Source: an uncultured Flavobacteriales bacterium (GTDB lineage Bacteria; Bacteroidota; Bacteroidia; Flavobacteriales_D; Crocinitomicaceae). From it: DNA of 64,000 nt. The notes under the pieces were generated by a model. It saw only the letters and a program-made list of their open reading frames with translations. It was not told the DNA's origin and did not search any database. Where the stretch lies: contig CAJQPA010000008.1 in assembly GCA_905480145.1 (NCBI GenBank), forward strand, positions 62,001 through 126,000, read 5' to 3'. This document shows, piece after piece, positions 9,448 through 48,352 of this stretch (position 1 is its first letter; each line of letters begins with the position of its first letter). Both the position numbers and the translations under genes were made by a program.

Positions 9448-9621
9448 GGTTTATTTTATTAGTAATTATAAAAGTAATTGTATTTGCTCTTGTGTGTTTA
9501 GCGCTTTTTATTTTGTTTAAATGACTTCTATTTTTCAATAAAACCCATTACTCTATTAATGTACAAAAAAAATAAGCTAATTGGAACAATTTAAATATGC
9601 CTATTAGTAGTTGTTGATAAA

Positions 9622-9660
9622 AACCAATAAATTGATTATTAATTAATCATTTTATTGGTT
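9622..9660. repeat. 39-bp inverted repeat before the mutagenic polymerase genes
   Basis: Arms of 17 bp, AACCAATAAATTGATTA at 9622-9638 and its complement at 9644-9660, match at 16 of 17 positions around a 5-bp centre TTAAT. The repeat ends 9 bp before the -7 box (9670) and so overlaps the -33 region, the place expected for a repressor operator. It has no T run on either side that would make it a terminator. Confidence 0.75.
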
Positions 9661-9669
9661 AATTATTAA

Positions 9670-9677
9670 TAGTTTTG
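9670..9677 (+). promoter_or_regulatory. -7 box TAGTTTTG for dnaE-dinB
   Basis: TAGTTTTG fits TAnnTTTG. Transcription from about 9682 would leave a ~25-nt leader to the ATG at 9707. The -33 region is covered by the 39-bp inverted repeat. Confidence 0.5.
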
Positions 9678-9706
9678 TCGTTCAACCTCATTAATATTTA
9701 TTCATA

Positions 9707-12700
9707 ATGTATATAAATACGCACACGTATTACAGTTTGCGCTATGGGGTTTTTTCACCAGAAACCCTACTTCAATTGGCGGTAGAGAATGATATTTCAA
9801 GTCTTGTCTTGACAGATATTAACACGACTTCTGCGTGTATTAATTTTGTAAAGAAAGCCAAGGAGTACAACGTAAAACCAATAGTTGGTGTGGATTTTAG
9901 AAATGGAGTAGAGCAACAGTTCATTCTCGTAGCTAAAAGCAATGAAGGATTTGAGAACATCAACATATACCTCACCAATATTCTCCATAATGGATTGAAG
10001 GTTCCTGATGTCGCTCCTGAATTGAGGGAAGTACTTGTGATTTATCCTTTTAAGAAAGAGAGGTGTGTTGTATTAAAAGAGTCAGATTACCTAGGGGTTG
10101 CGTCAGCAGATTTACCGTATGTCCGATTGAAGGCTATTGATATGAGTCGTGCTGTAATTTTACAAACGGTCAGTTTTCGTACAAAAAGAGATTTTAATGC
10201 GCATCGGTTATTGCGTGCTATTGATAAGAACACCTTGTTAAGTAAGCTGCCGACAACCGAGCAGGGGTTTCCTGAGCACAAAATGCTTCCAAAGAAAGAT
10301 TTGCTTGCTTTGTATTCGGAGCATAATGACATTGTTCAGAATACGCTTCAAATCATAAATGACTGTTCAATAGAATTTAATTGTTCAGAGAATCTTATTC
10401 CACAAAATCAAAACACCTATACAGGTTGTGGCGAGAATGATATTGAGATGCTGTACGATTTATGCGAGAAAGGAATGGATTACCGTTATCCAGAAATGAA
10501 CGAAGAGATTCGTCAAAGAATAGAAAAAGAGCTCACTACAATCATTGATTTAGGTTTTGTCTCATACTTCCTCATTAATTGGGATATTGTTTCTTACGCG
10601 CGATCAAAAGACTACTTTTATGTAGGTAGAGGTAGTGGCGCGAATAGTGTGATCGCCTATATTTTGAGAATTACAGATGTAGACCCTATCGAACTTGATC
10701 TATACTTTGAACGATTTATTAATCTTTACAGAAGTAGTCCACCAGATTTTGATATTGATTTCTCTTGGAGGGATAGAGATGATGTGACTCGTTATATTTT
10801 TTCTCGTTTCAAGAATGTGGCTCTTGTAGCCACTTACAACACATTCAAAGATAAAGGCGTTATTCGAGAGCTGGGGAAAGTATTTGGTTTGCCGAAAGAT
10901 GAAATTGATGCTTTGTCCAAAGGGAGAAGGCTTCCAACGCATAGTCACTTGTCAGATTTAGTTTTGAAGTATGGACAGTATATTCATGGTTTTCCAAATA
11001 ACCTTAGTGTTCATTCATGTGGAATTATAATATCAGAAAAACCAATCTCTTATTTTACAGCAACATTTATGCCTCCCAAAGGTTATCCAACAATTCAGTT
11101 TGATATGCACGTAGCAGAAGATGTTGGGCTTTATAAATTCGATATTTTAAGTCAGAGAGGGTTGAGTAAGATCAAAGATACATTGGACATTATCGAATAC
11201 AATCAGCCAGAGAAAGCAAATATAGATATACATGATATGAATCGCTTCAAGGTGGATGAGAAGATAAAAAAGATTCTTCGTGAAGCAAATGCAATTGGCT
11301 GCTTTTATGTAGAGTCTCCAGCAATGAGGATGTTGCTTAAAAAGCTGCAAGTGGATAGTTACCTTGGACTTGTAGCCGCTAGTTCTGTTATACGTCCTGG
11401 TGTTGCTCAGTCTGGAATGATGCAGGAGTATGTCAAGCGTTTCAGAAATCCTGAAAAACGAAATGAAGCACACCCTGTATTGCTAGAGCTAATGCCAGAG
11501 ACATATGGCGTAATGGTATATCAGGAAGACGTGATTAAAGTTGCTCATTATTTTGCAGGTTTAACGTTGGGTGAAGCAGATAAGATGAGGAGGGGGATGT
11601 CTGGTAAATTCAGATCGAGGGAAGAGTTTCAAGCGGTAAAAGATATCTTTTTTAGTAACTGCAAGGAAAAAGGGCATGCACCAGAACTTACTGCAGAGAT
11701 ATGGCGACAAACAGAGAGCTTTGCTGGTTATGCATTTGCGAAAGGACATTCTGCCTCATATGCCGTGGAGAGTTATCAATGCTTATTTCTAAAAGCTTAT
11801 TTTCCTTTAGAGTTTTTGGTGGCGACAGTTAATAATCAAGGAGGATTTTACAGTACAGAACTGTATTTACTCGAGAGCTTTCTCTTTGGCGGAATTACTC
11901 ATCCACCTTGCATAAATAAAAGTAACCTAGAGACAGTGATAAAGGGTAAGCATATTTATTTAGGCTTTCACTTATTAAAGTCGTTTGACACAAAGTTGGC
12001 AAGAGAAATTGTTTCAGAGCGATTGCTGAATGGTGATTTTATTGATTTGGATGACTTTTTAAACCGTGTACTTATCTCTCTAGAGCAAATCACCATTTTG
12101 ATCCGAATAGAAGCTTTTCGGGATACTGGGAAGAATAAACGAGCATTATTGTGGGAGGCGCGTTTTAAAATAAGTAAGAGTGAAAAAAAATCTACTTCAT
12201 TGGAACTGTTTCGAGTTCGTCCGAAAGTATTCAGTGTTCCTAAGTTGGAGCATAGTTGGGAAGAAGATGCGTTTGATCAGATAGAGTTGCTTGGTTTTTC
12301 TTTGTATAGTATGTTTCAGTTGATGTCTGACTCACCTAGGTCTTCTATCATGGCAAAAGATTTGCCACGCTATCAAAATCAAAAGGTGTGGATTGAGGGT
12401 TATTTGATACATGCTAAACGTACAACTACTTCCGGAGGAGAGAATATGTTCTTTGGGACCTTTATAGATAGAGAAGGTAATTGGTTAGATTCTGTTCACT
12501 TCCCAAAAGTAGCGCAGCGGTTTCCGTTTCGAGGGCGAGGTATTTATCGTATTTATGGAAAAGTGACTTTAGAGTATGATTGCGTTCTTCTTGAAGCTGA
12601 ATGGATGGAGAAAATGGGAGTTATTGAGGATCCACGATATGTAGAGGTACGTAACAAGAAGAGAGAGCAAGAGATTGTGACTTGGAACATGAAGAAGGAT

Positions 12701-43699: not shown

Positions 43700-44371
43700 A
43701 TGAAAAAAATATACTTCGCATTAGGATTTATTTCATCCACCTTATCTTTAAATGCACAAGACTACATAATAGCTCCTAACGACACTGTTGTTGTTGAACT
43801 AACATCAGCAACATACACATCAAATGATATTAATTTAGATCATGATAATCTCACGACAGATTCATTATTATTACAATGGGAAATTGTTGAAAATACAATT
43901 CCCGCTGATTGGGATTATTCTTATTGTGATTATACGAACTGCTACTCTTCCAGTGTTACAGATGCTACCATGACTAAATTTGGGCCTTCTGAATCAGGGT
44001 TTATAAAGGTTACTATTTCCGCCGGTTCTGCAGCGAATGCAATGATAAGATTTAAAGTCTATAACGATGGTTTTCCTGAAAATGCAGACACGCTAACATT
44101 TATTTATAATTCTACTTTAGGGATTATTGATAACCAATCAATAAATTATGTTTCGGTATTTCCAAATCCTTCAAATGGTGAATTCACAATAGATAACGTT
44201 ATATCAAACTCGCAAATTTCAGTGATTAACTCTCTTGGTCAAATAGTTTTAAATGCTGAGTCAGTTAATTCAAAATATACTTTTAATTCTAATTTAAATC
44301 CTGGAGTATATTTCATAAAATTATCTAATGGTAGGAAGCAGTATGCAACTAGAAAGTTAATCATTAAATAA
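43700..44371 (+). CDS. Small T9SS cargo, first gene of the copper locus
   Basis: A 223-residue secreted protein: signal peptide ending LNAQ, an Ig-like beta domain of about 120 residues with a likely disulfide (YCDYTNCY), and a T9SS type A sorting domain from about 150 (VSVFPNPSNGEFTI to RKLIIK). No metal motif is evident. It precedes the oxidase genes by 5 bp. A scaffold or electron-transfer role at the cell surface is possible but not shown. Confidence 0.82.
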   Translation: MKKIYFALGFISSTLSLNAQDYIIAPNDTVVVELTSATYTSNDINLDHDNLTTDSLLLQWEIVENTIPADWDYSYCDYTNCYSSSVTDATMTKFGPSESGFIKVTISAGSAANAMIRFKVYNDGFPENADTLTFIYNSTLGIIDNQSINYVSVFPNPSNGEFTIDNVISNSQISVINSLGQIVLNAESVNSKYTFNSNLNPGVYFIKLSNGRKQYATRKLIIK

Positions 44372-44376
44372 AATTA

Positions 44377-45240
44377 ATGATTAAGTACACTTTAATAACT
44401 CTTCTTTGCTCAATTAGTTTATTGTGCTCAAGTGCTACCATTGATGTTCGATTAGTTATTAACTCTGGAAGCCATTCACTTACTGGCGGAGCGTTTGTCG
44501 CAGCTAAAACATATTCTGTATCTAACACTTTTGAGGACAATAGTGACATTTTTATTTGGAATCATGATGATATTATCAATCTTAAGGTTGTTAATTTGGA
44601 TTCAGAACCACATGGTTTATTAATAGAAAACCATGTCAATATTAGTTCAATTCTATCCGGCGATTCTGTTTCTCAGTCATTCACACTAGCGGAAGAAGGT
44701 GTTTTTCGTTATTTCGATCCACTGAATAGCCCATTTAATGAATATTTAGGTTTATCAGGGATTGTTCATGTTAAATCTGTTTTGGATACTTCTTCATATT
44801 TTTATTGGGACATAAGAGAGATTGATTCTTCATGGAATGAGTTAATAATTTTGAACACTCCTCCTAACCTTGTTGACTATGACCCTGATTACTTTACTAT
44901 TAATGGGGTTAGCAGTCCAGATATTAATATGGATGTGTTAGCTCGACCAACTGGTATAGTTGGAGAAGAATTCAAAGTAATTTTGGTAAACAATGGACAA
45001 AGTATACATTCCATGCATTTCCATGGATATCATTTAACAATTGCCACTGATTCAAAAAGACCATCACACGTGGGGCGTAGTAAAGATACTTTCCCCTTAT
45101 ACCCAAGAGAACATCTTGTTTTGAGTTGCACGCCGGATAAGCCAGGAGAATACCCAGTACACGATCATAATCTAGTTGCTGTTACAGGCGGTCAGCAATA
45201 TGCAACAGGTATGTTTATAACAATGTTGATTGCAGAATGA
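44377..45240 (+). CDS. Multicopper-oxidase-like protein lacking the type 1 copper Cys
   Basis: A 287-residue exported protein (signal peptide about 1-19) with two cupredoxin domains. Domain 2 carries HSMHFHGYH (His214, His216) and VHDHNLV (His262, His264). These are two of the HxH pairs that hold the trinuclear copper centre. The usual HCH is HDH: the type 1 Cys is replaced by Asp263 and the later type 1 His is absent, although GM (278-279) remains. Domain 1 has no HxH pair. Alone it cannot be a complete oxidase. The stop overlaps the next gene by 4 bp (ATGA), and that gene has the missing halves. It lacks a T9SS domain. Confidence 0.8.
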   Translation: MIKYTLITLLCSISLLCSSATIDVRLVINSGSHSLTGGAFVAAKTYSVSNTFEDNSDIFIWNHDDIINLKVVNLDSEPHGLLIENHVNISSILSGDSVSQSFTLAEEGVFRYFDPLNSPFNEYLGLSGIVHVKSVLDTSSYFYWDIREIDSSWNELIILNTPPNLVDYDPDYFTINGVSSPDINMDVLARPTGIVGEEFKVILVNNGQSIHSMHFHGYHLTIATDSKRPSHVGRSKDTFPLYPREHLVLSCTPDKPGEYPVHDHNLVAVTGGQQYATGMFITMLIAE

Positions 45241-46415
45241 GAAAGACAATATTATATCTTATATTTTCATCATCGTTTTCTATCAATGCCCAAATTGATT
45301 ACTCTAAATTAGTTGTAGGAAGAACAACTGGAGAGCAATTAATGCATGACGGAGCAATGGTTAGAACTTTTGGTTTTGCAGAAACCTTAAGTGAAGATAT
45401 AAAAGTACCCGGACCCACTATTGAAGTTACCGAAGGTGATAGCATAGAATTTGATTTTTGGAATGTATCGCAAGGTGCTCCGCACACCATACATTTACAT
45501 GGATTGGATGTCAATCAAGAAAATGATGGTGTACCCTCACTCTCATTTGAAGTTTTACATATGGAGCATGGTTTTTATAAATTCAAAGCCCCTCACCCTG
45601 GAACATATATTTACCATTGTCATGTTGTTTCAACAATTCACGTGCAAGCAGGGATGTATGGTGTTATAATTGTCCAACCATCTAATGGAAATCAAAATCA
45701 AGTATGGAACGATGGTGAAATCTATGCAAGAGATTTACTATGGACTTCATCAGAAATTGATACGAATTGGCATACATTAACGGTGCTCGATCACAATCAC
45801 TCCTCCAATACTCCTCATTATGTGCCAGCTGACTATGCACCACAATATTTTATGATTAATGGGGAATCTGAGACTCAATTATCGCAAGAATCGGGATATT
45901 ATTATACCGGCCAAAATGAGAAAGTGTATATGCGACTAGTGAACATCGGGTACTATGGAGTTCGATACATTTTCCCTTCTTCTCTGAATGCCACCACTAT
46001 CGCAAGTGACGGAAGACCTTTACCGTCCAGTTTTGAGAATGATACAATTGAAGTTCTTCCTGGTGAAAGATATGGAACTATGATAGAAACAGGAACTGAC
46101 ATTCTCTATCCTGTTGTTGTTGAGTACTTTAATTTAAACAATCAAGTTGTAGAGTCATCACAAAACGTTATCATTAAAACATCTCCTCTTGGAATTGAGA
46201 CTGAAAATATTACTGGACTTAAAGTAACTCCTAATCCATCTGGATCTGGTGTATTTAACATAAACAGTGATATATTGGTTGATTATTCTATTTACTCCAT
46301 TCTCGGGGAGCTAATCATTCAAGGTAATTCAAGTGCAATCGATTTAAGCGATGAGCCTAATGGAATGTACTTTCTGCAAACTGAAAATTCAATCCAGAAA
46401 CTTATCAAAAAATAG
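45237..46415 (+). CDS. Multicopper-oxidase-like protein with type 1 site and T9SS signal
   Basis: A 392-residue protein: signal peptide ending NAQ, two cupredoxin domains and a T9SS sorting domain from about 323 (VTPNPSGSGVFNI). Domain 1 has HTIHLHG (His86, His88) and YHCHVVSTIHVQAGM, which contains the HCH pair (127-129), a complete type 1 copper site (Cys128, His135, Met140) and the links to a trinuclear centre. Domain 2 (about 165-310) has lost all histidine pairs. The trinuclear site is therefore only half present, and the other half is in the preceding protein. It should oxidise a small substrate or Cu(I) with O2 at the cell surface (inference). Converges on mbnH with 1 bp between. Confidence 0.85.
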   Translation: MRKTILYLIFSSSFSINAQIDYSKLVVGRTTGEQLMHDGAMVRTFGFAETLSEDIKVPGPTIEVTEGDSIEFDFWNVSQGAPHTIHLHGLDVNQENDGVPSLSFEVLHMEHGFYKFKAPHPGTYIYHCHVVSTIHVQAGMYGVIIVQPSNGNQNQVWNDGEIYARDLLWTSSEIDTNWHTLTVLDHNHSSNTPHYVPADYAPQYFMINGESETQLSQESGYYYTGQNEKVYMRLVNIGYYGVRYIFPSSLNATTIASDGRPLPSSFENDTIEVLPGERYGTMIETGTDILYPVVVEYFNLNNQVVESSQNVIIKTSPLGIETENITGLKVTPNPSGSGVFNINSDILVDYSIYSILGELIIQGNSSAIDLSDEPNGMYFLQTENSIQKLIKK

Positions 46416-46416
46416 A

Positions 46417-47403
46417 CTAATTATAATTTTTCATATAGCTTGTGTCTACAAGTGTTGAAAAAAAGTTTATCAAATCATTTTCTTGTTCATCAGAAAGTTT
46501 AAATGAAGTTATCCTTTTATCTTTGAGCTTGTGAGGCTCTCCACCTCTTCTATAGTGGTCTATAACATCATGTATTAAGGCTTTAGATCCATCATGCATA
46601 TAAGGTGCAGTAAGTGTAATGTTTCTTAATGAAGGAATTTTAAATTTACCAATGTCGCTCGAGTCATTAAATATTCTAAATCGCCCTTTATCAGTCCCAT
46701 AATTCATATAGAGTCCATTATTGATTGTTTCATATGTTGTGAAATTCGGTGCAGGATGGCACTTTGTACAATACAAATCTTCTGAAAATATTCTCCATCC
46801 TCTTTTGGCACTATTGGAAATAGCATCAATATCGTTATTGGAATAAAATTGATCAAATGGTGAGCTCTTTGAAATTAAAGATCTTTCAAAGGCTGATATA
46901 GCTCTTGTTAAAACCCAAGGATCAAAGTCTCTATTAAAACATTCTTTAGCCGCTTTTGAATATTCAGGAATAGCTTTTAGTTTAGAAATCAAATCCAACA
47001 TGTTCATATTCATTTCAACATGTTCTTGTATTGGAACGATAACTTGCTGCTCTAATGTTGGGAGATGTCCGTCAAACATTACTGTTGGCAAATCTCTTGA
47101 ATTCAATATGCTAGGAGAATTCCTTTCCGTTAGCCTGCCTTCTACTCCAACAGAAACTTTTAAGCCATCTGTAAAAGCCATTTCTGGAAGGTGGCAAGAA
47201 GAACATGAAACAGTTTCGTCTGATGATAGTCTTTTGTCAAAAAAAAGTTTCCTGCCAAATTCAATTTTCTTCAGTTCATTATCACTGTCTATATGAACTG
47301 AAGAAAATTCTGCAATAGCTGTATTTTTAGAATTGCGGCATTGCGCAAGACAAATAAATATACCTGCAAAGAAAAAACACTTTAATAAGGTTTTAGTTTG
47401 CAA
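46417..47403 (-). CDS. mbnH: MbnH-like dihaem cytochrome c peroxidase family enzyme
   Basis: A 328-residue MauG/CcpA-superfamily protein, exported, possibly as a lipoprotein (Cys22 in ICLAQC). Two haem c sites are visible: VSCSSCH and YCTKCHPAPNF. Other family segments are GRKLFFDKRLSSD, RNSPSILN and APYMHDGSKALIHDVIDHY. MbnH and CorB enzymes oxidise a Trp of their partner (MbnP, CorA/MopE) to kynurenine, creating a copper ligand. The partner gene lies directly upstream with an 11-bp overlap. The start is TTG at 47403, inside the end of mbnP, so translation is coupled. Confidence 0.8.
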   Translation of the reverse strand: MQTKTLLKCFFFAGIFICLAQCRNSKNTAIAEFSSVHIDSDNELKKIEFGRKLFFDKRLSSDETVSCSSCHLPEMAFTDGLKVSVGVEGRLTERNSPSILNSRDLPTVMFDGHLPTLEQQVIVPIQEHVEMNMNMLDLISKLKAIPEYSKAAKECFNRDFDPWVLTRAISAFERSLISKSSPFDQFYSNNDIDAISNSAKRGWRIFSEDLYCTKCHPAPNFTTYETINNGLYMNYGTDKGRFRIFNDSSDIGKFKIPSLRNITLTAPYMHDGSKALIHDVIDHYRRGGEPHKLKDKRITSFKLSDEQENDLINFFSTLVDTSYMKNYN

Positions 47404-48352
47404 CCTTAATAGAGTTTAATGTAGTTCCGTTAACGTCAGTAATATTAAATATGTATGCTCCAGAGGAAAGATTTGAACTTGTGTAAGTCCCAGAATTTTC
47501 ATTGGTGCTATTCGAAACTATTACTTTGCCATTCAAATCAATCAAGTTGTAAGAATTTGCTCCCGTAACTTCGTTCCATTTAATTTCTACATTACCTCCA
47601 TTGTTAACAAAGAATAAACTACCAACTTTTGAAAGCTCTGTAATCCCAGCACTCGCAGGAGATTCAAAAACAGCTCTGTCGTTAACATTGTTCATTGTCG
47701 CAGCATTAATTCCAGTTGATCCATGCTGAACGCCTAATGTAGCAACGTCAGCTCCGAAAAGCCATTGTTCCAAATTACAATTGATATTTATCTGAGTTCT
47801 TTCATTCATATAAGTTCCGACCGTAGGTAATTGGAAATTTTTAAAATTTGCATCACCAAGATCATGAAGTTGGAACAAAGTTGTAGGTTCTCCATCACCA
47901 TTACTATCTGCTCTCCCATCTACTAATAAAAATTTGTATCCAGAAGTCCATCCCCAATGCATAGAAGGCGTCTGAAAACTTAAAAAGTGACCTGTAGGGT
48001 ATTGTGTAATGTCAAGATGGTTTATAGGTTCGGGGACACCAACACTAAAGTTTATCTGTTCAATATTAGGAACGTCATATTGACCTAAATCAAATGACCC
48101 AGCATCTGTTTGAACTAAAAGCACGGTATCAGAAAGGTCCAAATCCTGGCCGCCATCGTAAATAACATGAATATTTGAAATGTAATAATTAAAAGCACTT
48201 ATAGTCATTGCAGCACCTGTAATGTCTTGCACTATTTCATCTAAAATAAGATCTTGATTACTAGCTTTTGGATGAAAAGTTAGATTCAATGTTTTTTGAG
48301 CAAATGAATTTCCAACAATGGCGATTGCAATTAAGGTAACTATTTTTTTCAT
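47393..48352 (-). CDS. mbnP: MbnP-like copper protein with T9SS sorting domain
   Basis: A 319-residue secreted protein: signal peptide ending SFAQ, an MbnP-family domain of about 215 residues and a C-terminal T9SS sorting domain (about 245-319, ending NSIKVAN). The family motif is MHWGWTSGYKF at 131-141. The Trp residues 133 and 135 are the candidates for conversion to kynurenine by MbnH. ISAFNYYISNI and FQLHDLG are other family pieces. In known members the modified site binds copper. The sorting domain would put this copper site on the outside of the cell. It follows a methyltransferase gene by 13 bp. Confidence 0.82.
   Translation of the reverse strand: MKKIVTLIAIAIVGNSFAQKTLNLTFHPKASNQDLILDEIVQDITGAAMTISAFNYYISNIHVIYDGGQDLDLSDTVLLVQTDAGSFDLGQYDVPNIEQINFSVGVPEPINHLDITQYPTGHFLSFQTPSMHWGWTSGYKFLLVDGRADSNGDGEPTTLFQLHDLGDANFKNFQLPTVGTYMNERTQININCNLEQWLFGADVATLGVQHGSTGINAATMNNVNDRAVFESPASAGITELSKVGSLFFVNNGGNVEIKWNEVTGANSYNLIDLNGKVIVSNSTNENSGTYTSSNLSSGAYIFNITDVNGTTLNSIKVAN

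Follow-up and report, generated by a model that had tools for sequence, protein, structure and literature searches.

Why should what appears to be a multicopper oxidase be encoded by two genes, neither of which holds a complete active site, and what has it to do with a protein of the MbnP family and its di-heme partner MbnH? The question is raised by a stretch of 64,000 nucleotides from an uncultured Flavobacteriales bacterium (GenBank assembly GCA_905480145.1, contig CAJQPA010000008.1, positions 62,001 to 126,000), which is called the window below. Between its positions 43,700 and 48,352 three closely spaced genes of the plus strand, orf1, orf2 and orf3, face the minus-strand genes mbnH and mbnP, and a single base separates the stop codons of orf3 and mbnH. 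This 1-bp convergence of the mbn genes on the oxidase genes had been pointed out in the initial annotation; the coordinates of the open reading frames bear it out. The gene set is conserved among relatives and therefore not a matter of chance. The genome is a 2.44-Mb draft in 63 contigs; its nearest named relatives are Flavobacteriales, many of them with the label Crocinitomicaceae.

The answer at which we arrive is that orf2 and orf3 very probably make up a heteromeric multicopper oxidase, next to which mbnP and mbnH are found in some relatives and not in others.

The oxidase pair and its predicted active site

The genes orf2 (44377..45240) and orf3 (45237..46415), both on the plus strand, are joined by an ATGA overlap. 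Both products match Cu-oxidase models in profile searches, and they are homologous to each other across both domains (HHalign probability 99.5, E 4e-22). Single-chain two-domain oxidases match either of them in sequence. The AlphaFold2 model of orf2 (pLDDT 94.2, pTM 0.90) has the structure 3g5w as its best Foldseek match, over the full length and with a TM score of 0.77. Of the site, each protein retains one half; in alignments with the single-chain oxidase 2zwn, what orf2 and orf3 retain covers one half of that chain each. In orf3 the half resides in the first domain, with a type 1 site made of H83, C128, H135 and M140 and, in addition, H86, H88, H127 and H129; the second domain is degenerate. 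In orf2 the first domain is degenerate, and the second one contributes H214, H216, H262 and H264 to a trinuclear site. The roles that we assign to these residues are presumed ones, by analogy with other two-domain oxidases and with nitrite reductases.

The two halves are strictly conserved. The pair was aligned at 81 loci, i.e., the window and 80 regions of relatives. Nine were left out because genes were truncated or broken or had not been called as a pair, and 72 adjacent full-length pairs were kept, which are not independent of each other, the genomes G149 and G092 contributing three loci each and G309 two. All the orf3 residues (H83, H86, H88, H127, C128, H129, H135 and M140) are present in 72/72 pairs. 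The same holds for H214, H216, H219, H262 and H264 of orf2; H211 is found in 67/72. Elsewhere no histidine or cysteine column of orf3 outside domain 1 reaches 90% conservation (H179: 39/72), and the first domain of orf2 retains H79 only (69/72). A second, partly overlapping orf2 set, composed of the window and 71 sequences from named loci, yielded 72/72 for H211, H214, H216, H219, H262 and H264 and 66/72 for H79. A complete type 1 site together with eight trinuclear histidines does not occur in one chain; each chain has its half, and the whole set is present across the pair in 72 of the 72. From this complementarity, which the initial annotation does not mention, the heteromeric oxidase is predicted. 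As judged from their sequences, the two proteins are sisters among the two-domain multicopper oxidases, with opposite halves of one active site retained, and a single enzyme divided between two proteins is the better reading of the oxidase. The two would be duplicates that each gave up the copper site in one domain, but not in the same one. Domain 1 of orf3 would hold the type 1 copper together with half of the trinuclear cluster, domain 2 of orf2 the rest of that cluster, and a working site would form solely where the two proteins are in contact.

A profile search of 399 genomes of the order found orf2 in 104, orf3 in 105 and both in 103. According to the coordinates listed, the genes are adjacent in most of the genomes that hold both; for G101, G201 and G239 the two matches are listed on separate contigs. 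In a phylum-wide sample orf2 was detected in 1/395 genomes, namely the window's own, at a limit (E <= 1e-25, six candidates scored per genome) that is stricter than in the scan of the order. In that sample orf2 is therefore rare outside the order. A few Saprospirales and Cytophagales carry oxidase loci, too (best 80 of 114 loci). Against the copper nitrite reductase model TIGR02376, orf3 reaches 72.5 bits, which is below the cut-off of 296.3.

At one locus, L175, orf2 and orf3 appear fused to a frame of 689 residues. We rejected it as a proof of the complex: the joined stretch retains a second signal-peptide-like segment and is devoid of the usual orf2 end. Probably, the fusion is a frameshift or an assembly error, and it was excluded from the counts. 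The relatives of orf2 and orf3 at L188 are far longer, 1092 and 680 residues. Elsewhere in the window's genome (G000:C1, near 9516-11099) matches to Cu-oxidase and to the sorting tail of the type IX secretion system (T9SS) fall into one same-strand frame of 580 residues, probably a single-chain, T9SS-tailed multicopper oxidase.

MbnP, MbnH and their linkage to the oxidase

On the minus strand, mbnH (46417..47403) begins with a TTG that overlaps mbnP (47393..48352). The product of mbnP matches PF20243 with 102.5 bits, above the cut-off of 27, that of mbnH the MauG/CCP family PF03150 with 163 bits. MbnH is a MauG-like di-heme enzyme with two c-type heme motifs, CSSCH and CTKCH; its best match in the PDB is 6e1c, and its start, by eye, reads like a lipoprotein signal. 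The MbnP of methanotrophs carries kynurenine. In the window's MbnP, Trp133 and Trp135 are found at the positions given in the initial annotation, as parts of an MxWxW motif. M131, W133, W135 and H210 are invariant in 45/45 long MbnPs aligned, be they linked to the oxidase or not, and H122 is nearly so (42/45). The conserved histidines are possible copper ligands. We infer that this MbnP acquires kynurenine, binds copper and is exported.

Such pairs are not rare. The window's genome has two further MbnP genes (228 and 254 residues, tail-less by eye), each of them followed by an MbnH-like gene. A profile built from ten linked MbnPs matches at least 259/399 genomes of the order at E <= 1e-20 and at least 184/399 at E <= 1e-50; these are lower bounds, since five candidates were scored per genome. 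Most of the strong matches listed extend through the tail positions. Also, mbnH adjoins mbnP in 19/19 inspected loci that are not known to adjoin the oxidase, two of these mbnH genes being cut by contig ends. From the strong matches in 184 genomes and the 19 adjoining pairs it follows that the T9SS-tailed MbnP with its MbnH is a common pair in the order and not peculiar to this locus, which could not be seen in the initial annotation. By these matches, it mostly occurs without an oxidase nearby.

How often, then, do the two groups of genes meet? The linkage survey comprised 82 loci (80 named ones, the window and L082), of which 73 had a usable oxidase pair. A tailed-type MbnP was counted as linked, if it scored >150 bits against the profile of ten and was located <=8 kb from the pair. 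orf1 stands beside the oxidase pair in 56/73, a tailed-type MbnP within the 8 kb in 21/73. Three more pairs have mbnH alone <=8 kb away; in one of these (L134) there is also an MbnP match that, at 93 bits, was too weak to be counted. The window's genome holds three MbnP genes in its 2.44 Mb; at this density, chance would place one within 8 kb of the pair in about 2% of cases. On this estimate, oxidase and MbnP are together far more often than chance would have it. Among 45 genomes with both the oxidase and a T9SS-type MbnP, at least 16 have them <=8 kb apart. The linked loci belong to Crocinitomicaceae, other Flavobacteriales and one member of the Saprospirales (Aureispira). A lack of synteny in relatives, which the initial annotation had named as a refutation, is thus not what was found. 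Lishizhenia tianjinensis, a relative that can be cultured, possesses orf1-orf2-orf3.

The arrangement varies. It is convergent in the window, L123-L125 and L127-L129. The mbn genes lie downstream on the same strand in L135, L138, L141, L147, L151, L160, L164, L172 and L173 and upstream on the same strand in L131, L190 and L193; L170 is mixed, and in L195 they are on the opposite strand, 5.6 kb off. Several relatives have the oxidase and mbn genes closely packed in a single run on one strand. In the oxidase tree, made by a quick method, the unlinked label requires 11 changes (7 or more, if judged by starred branches); in the MbnP tree the linked members fall into at least three separate lineages. 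By all this, the link of the oxidase to MbnP is real but optional, and a functional tie between them appears reasonably probable.

One locus (L170/L075) has a single mbnP beside the oxidase operon, flanked by two different mbnH-like genes. At L054, L055, L059 and L062, which belong to the same-strand group, the operon is closely followed, as seen by eye, by a gene for a PorZ-like propeller and by one that resembles recO. A TonB receptor downstream of mbnH in this group had been considered and was discarded: the protein of about 770 residues reads, by eye, as a T9SS-tailed PorZ-like propeller, and the recO-like gene comes thereafter.

Sorting tails, export and rival readings

The tail described by TIGR04183 is found above the cut-off of 23 bits in orf1 (50.1 bits), orf3 (32.9 bits) and MbnP (28.6 bits). 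The initial annotation was thus right in attributing a T9SS sorting domain to MbnP, weak as this tail is, and to one member of the oxidase pair. Against the Pfam model PF18962 MbnP scores 25.6 bits, slightly below the cut-off of 27, and orf1 48.3 bits. In relatives, orf1 is tailed in 55/55 aligned members (Pfam), orf3 in 10/10 and MbnP in 10/10 (chosen sets of ten). The secretion system is present in the window's genome, as indicated by an SprA_N match (530 bits) and by 61 hits of the tail model (E <= 0.001). No T9SS tail was detected in 72 members of orf2 scanned (0/72), nor by TIGR04183 in the window's orf2. Being tail-less, orf2 must either ride with orf3 or remain inside. If the shared site is outside the cell, we infer, orf2 must travel with orf3. 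Precedents of passenger transport are Tat (twin-arginine translocation) hitch-hiking and peroxisomal piggyback import (PMC9251779); the accessible sections of this paper on folded-protein transport apply the piggyback to peroxisomes and cite Tat hitch-hiking, not T9SS.

The remaining gene, orf1 (43700..44371, plus strand), encodes a small Ig-like protein of 223 residues with a T9SS type A tail. Its C76 and C81 form a CxxxxC motif that is invariant in 55 aligned members. A structure search of the PDB with its AlphaFold2 model (pLDDT 91.4, pTM 0.60) gave only generic Ig-like hits among the 50 matches listed, and a function derived from structure was rejected on this ground. Downstream of orf3, the loci L064, L065, L068 and L071 have a second short orf1 relative (139-145 residues).

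On balance, we favour the following explanation. The genes orf1-orf2-orf3 would form an operon that encodes a heteromeric multicopper oxidase destined for export, the complex being taken outside by the T9SS tail of orf3 with orf2 as the passenger. mbnP and mbnH would be an optional accessory that arrived beside the oxidase several times. MbnH, in the periplasm, would oxidise W133 or W135 of MbnP to kynurenine. MbnP would be exported by the T9SS and, once outside, would either hold copper for the oxidase or take up copper that the oxidase has handled. The locus, taken together, suggests a putative copper-handling module on the cell surface. The boldest version, a secreted oxidase made of two complementary products, in which orf3 would bring orf2 through the T9SS translocon and a kynurenine protein, itself exported by the T9SS, would be the dedicated extracellular copper donor, is conceivable, yet tentative.

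A number of observations weigh against the favoured explanation. Single-chain relatives of the oxidase form a trimeric ring, and an even alternation of two kinds of subunits is impossible in a trimer. The curated scores are low: MbnP reaches 45.2 bits against the equivalog model TIGR04052 (cut-off 140), and the best NCBIfam model for MbnH, the MbnH-type TIGR04039, gives 236.2 bits, below its cut-off of 362.85. For T9SS passenger export no instance was found in the literature searched, which consisted of titles, the starts of abstracts and parts of PMC3621798, PMC3912023, PMC12618676 and PMC9251779. The synteny expected in relatives is partial: several gene orders keep MbnP near the oxidase in the 21 linked cases, 52/73 pairs have no tailed-type MbnP <=8 kb in the DNA examined, and the tight convergence is local. 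Even in the window's own oxidase clade, one genome (G313, L126/L046) has mbnH adjoining the oxidase operon without mbnP, so that its MbnH may act on another protein, and another one (G384, L122/L042) has neither of them there. Counted by genome, a T9SS-type MbnP is found in 45/104 oxidase holders vs 139/295 others (p=0.57). Genome-level co-occurrence had to be dropped as a support for the functional tie; being random, it implies that the oxidase pair and the T9SS-type MbnP need not each other. Finally, six relatives (L204, L205, L206, L208, L213 and L215) display the order methyltransferase - mbnP - mbnH - sigma factor, as in the window, without oxidase genes.

The last two points favour the rival that survives best. 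It accepts the heteromeric oxidase and takes MbnP/MbnH as mere neighbours: the cassette would have landed by a resident mbnP-mbnH, and the convergence would be functionally meaningless. Indeed, the gap between mbnH and the sigma factor gene measures 74-302 bp in the six relatives vs 2986 bp in the window. The cassette was, by this comparison, either gained in the window's lineage or lost in the six. In the MbnP tree L204 and L205 group with the linked L123 and L124, not outside the window, which fits some loss or repeated gain; L203, with its unlinked label in that tree, stops at a contig edge and is uninformative. The linkage, however, recurs with other MbnP lineages, at other sites and in other gene orders, same-strand runs with 4-bp overlaps included, and G149 holds the convergent five-gene block at two sites. 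Mere neighbourhood is therefore a doubtful reading.

An accessory role of MbnP is compatible with a proposal of the initial annotation, a surface oxidase that converts Cu(I) to Cu(II), MbnP catching the product. A copper-binding family is in the neighbourhood, and orf3 weakly matches the copper-resistance oxidases of TIGR01480 (63.9 bits). This score, however, is far below the cut-off of 478.95, the models of nitrite reductase (72.5) and ascorbate oxidase (51.1) give similar values, and a substrate cannot be revealed by sequence; this specific activity is unlikely. Least of all do we believe in a separate action of the two, with orf3 carrying electrons as a secreted blue copper protein and orf2 binding copper in the periplasm. 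This would suit the tails (0/72 orf2 vs 10/10 orf3 scanned). The eight expected trinuclear histidines, however, are invariant across the 72/72 pairs, and neither a type 1 protein on its own nor a protein that simply binds copper would need them; moreover, 103/106 genomes with either gene match both.

Comparison with known systems

The initial annotation knew of no system that joins kynurenine-copper proteins, T9SS and an oxidase. CorA and MopE are already known as surface or secreted kynurenine-copper proteins (PMC3912023, accessible sections). The T9SS route and the oxidase link were not found in the literature searched. Nor did titles and abstract starts, with most subscription papers outside the search, yield a description of a T9SS-exported MbnP or of a heteromeric or split two-domain oxidase. 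The window's MbnP would work like CorA/CorB and MopE/SACCP of methanotrophs, which are surface-bound or secreted, have two histidines and kynurenine at the copper and are co-transcribed with a di-heme protein; in the same sections of PMC3912023 there is no mention of T9SS export. The MbnP profile revealed no relation to CorA/MopE: all its seven PDB matches at E <= 1 are in the tail region, positions 234-319.

With the MbnP/MbnH of methanotrophs (PF20243, TIGR04052/TIGR04039; 6e1c) the window's genes share adjacency, the WxW motif and the di-heme partner. They differ by the T9SS tail, by scores below the NCBIfam cut-offs and by the link to an oxidase operon. That the pair is conserved far beyond methanobactin producers is stated in the accessible part of PMC3621798. 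Known from copper work on methanotrophs, it is widespread in its T9SS-tailed form within one order of Bacteroidota, which opens a route to its role outside methanotrophs.

As T9SS type A cargo, orf1, orf3 and MbnP have the TIGR04183 tail in common, whereas orf2, which is expected to share the site of orf3, is without it. If the explanation is true, the locus would become a test case for the T9SS carrying a protein that has no sorting tail.

The two-domain multicopper oxidases, such as the metagenome laccase 2zwn and the blue copper oxidase of Nitrosomonas europaea (3g5w), resemble the pair in fold, as judged from the orf2 model and the sequence matches of both, and in ligand motifs. In these, both halves of the site are in one chain; in orf2 and orf3 they are on two proteins, with one degenerate domain each and a single T9SS tail between them. 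If true, nature would here have split an enzyme of a well-studied class, such that the catalytic cluster has to lie where two different proteins touch.

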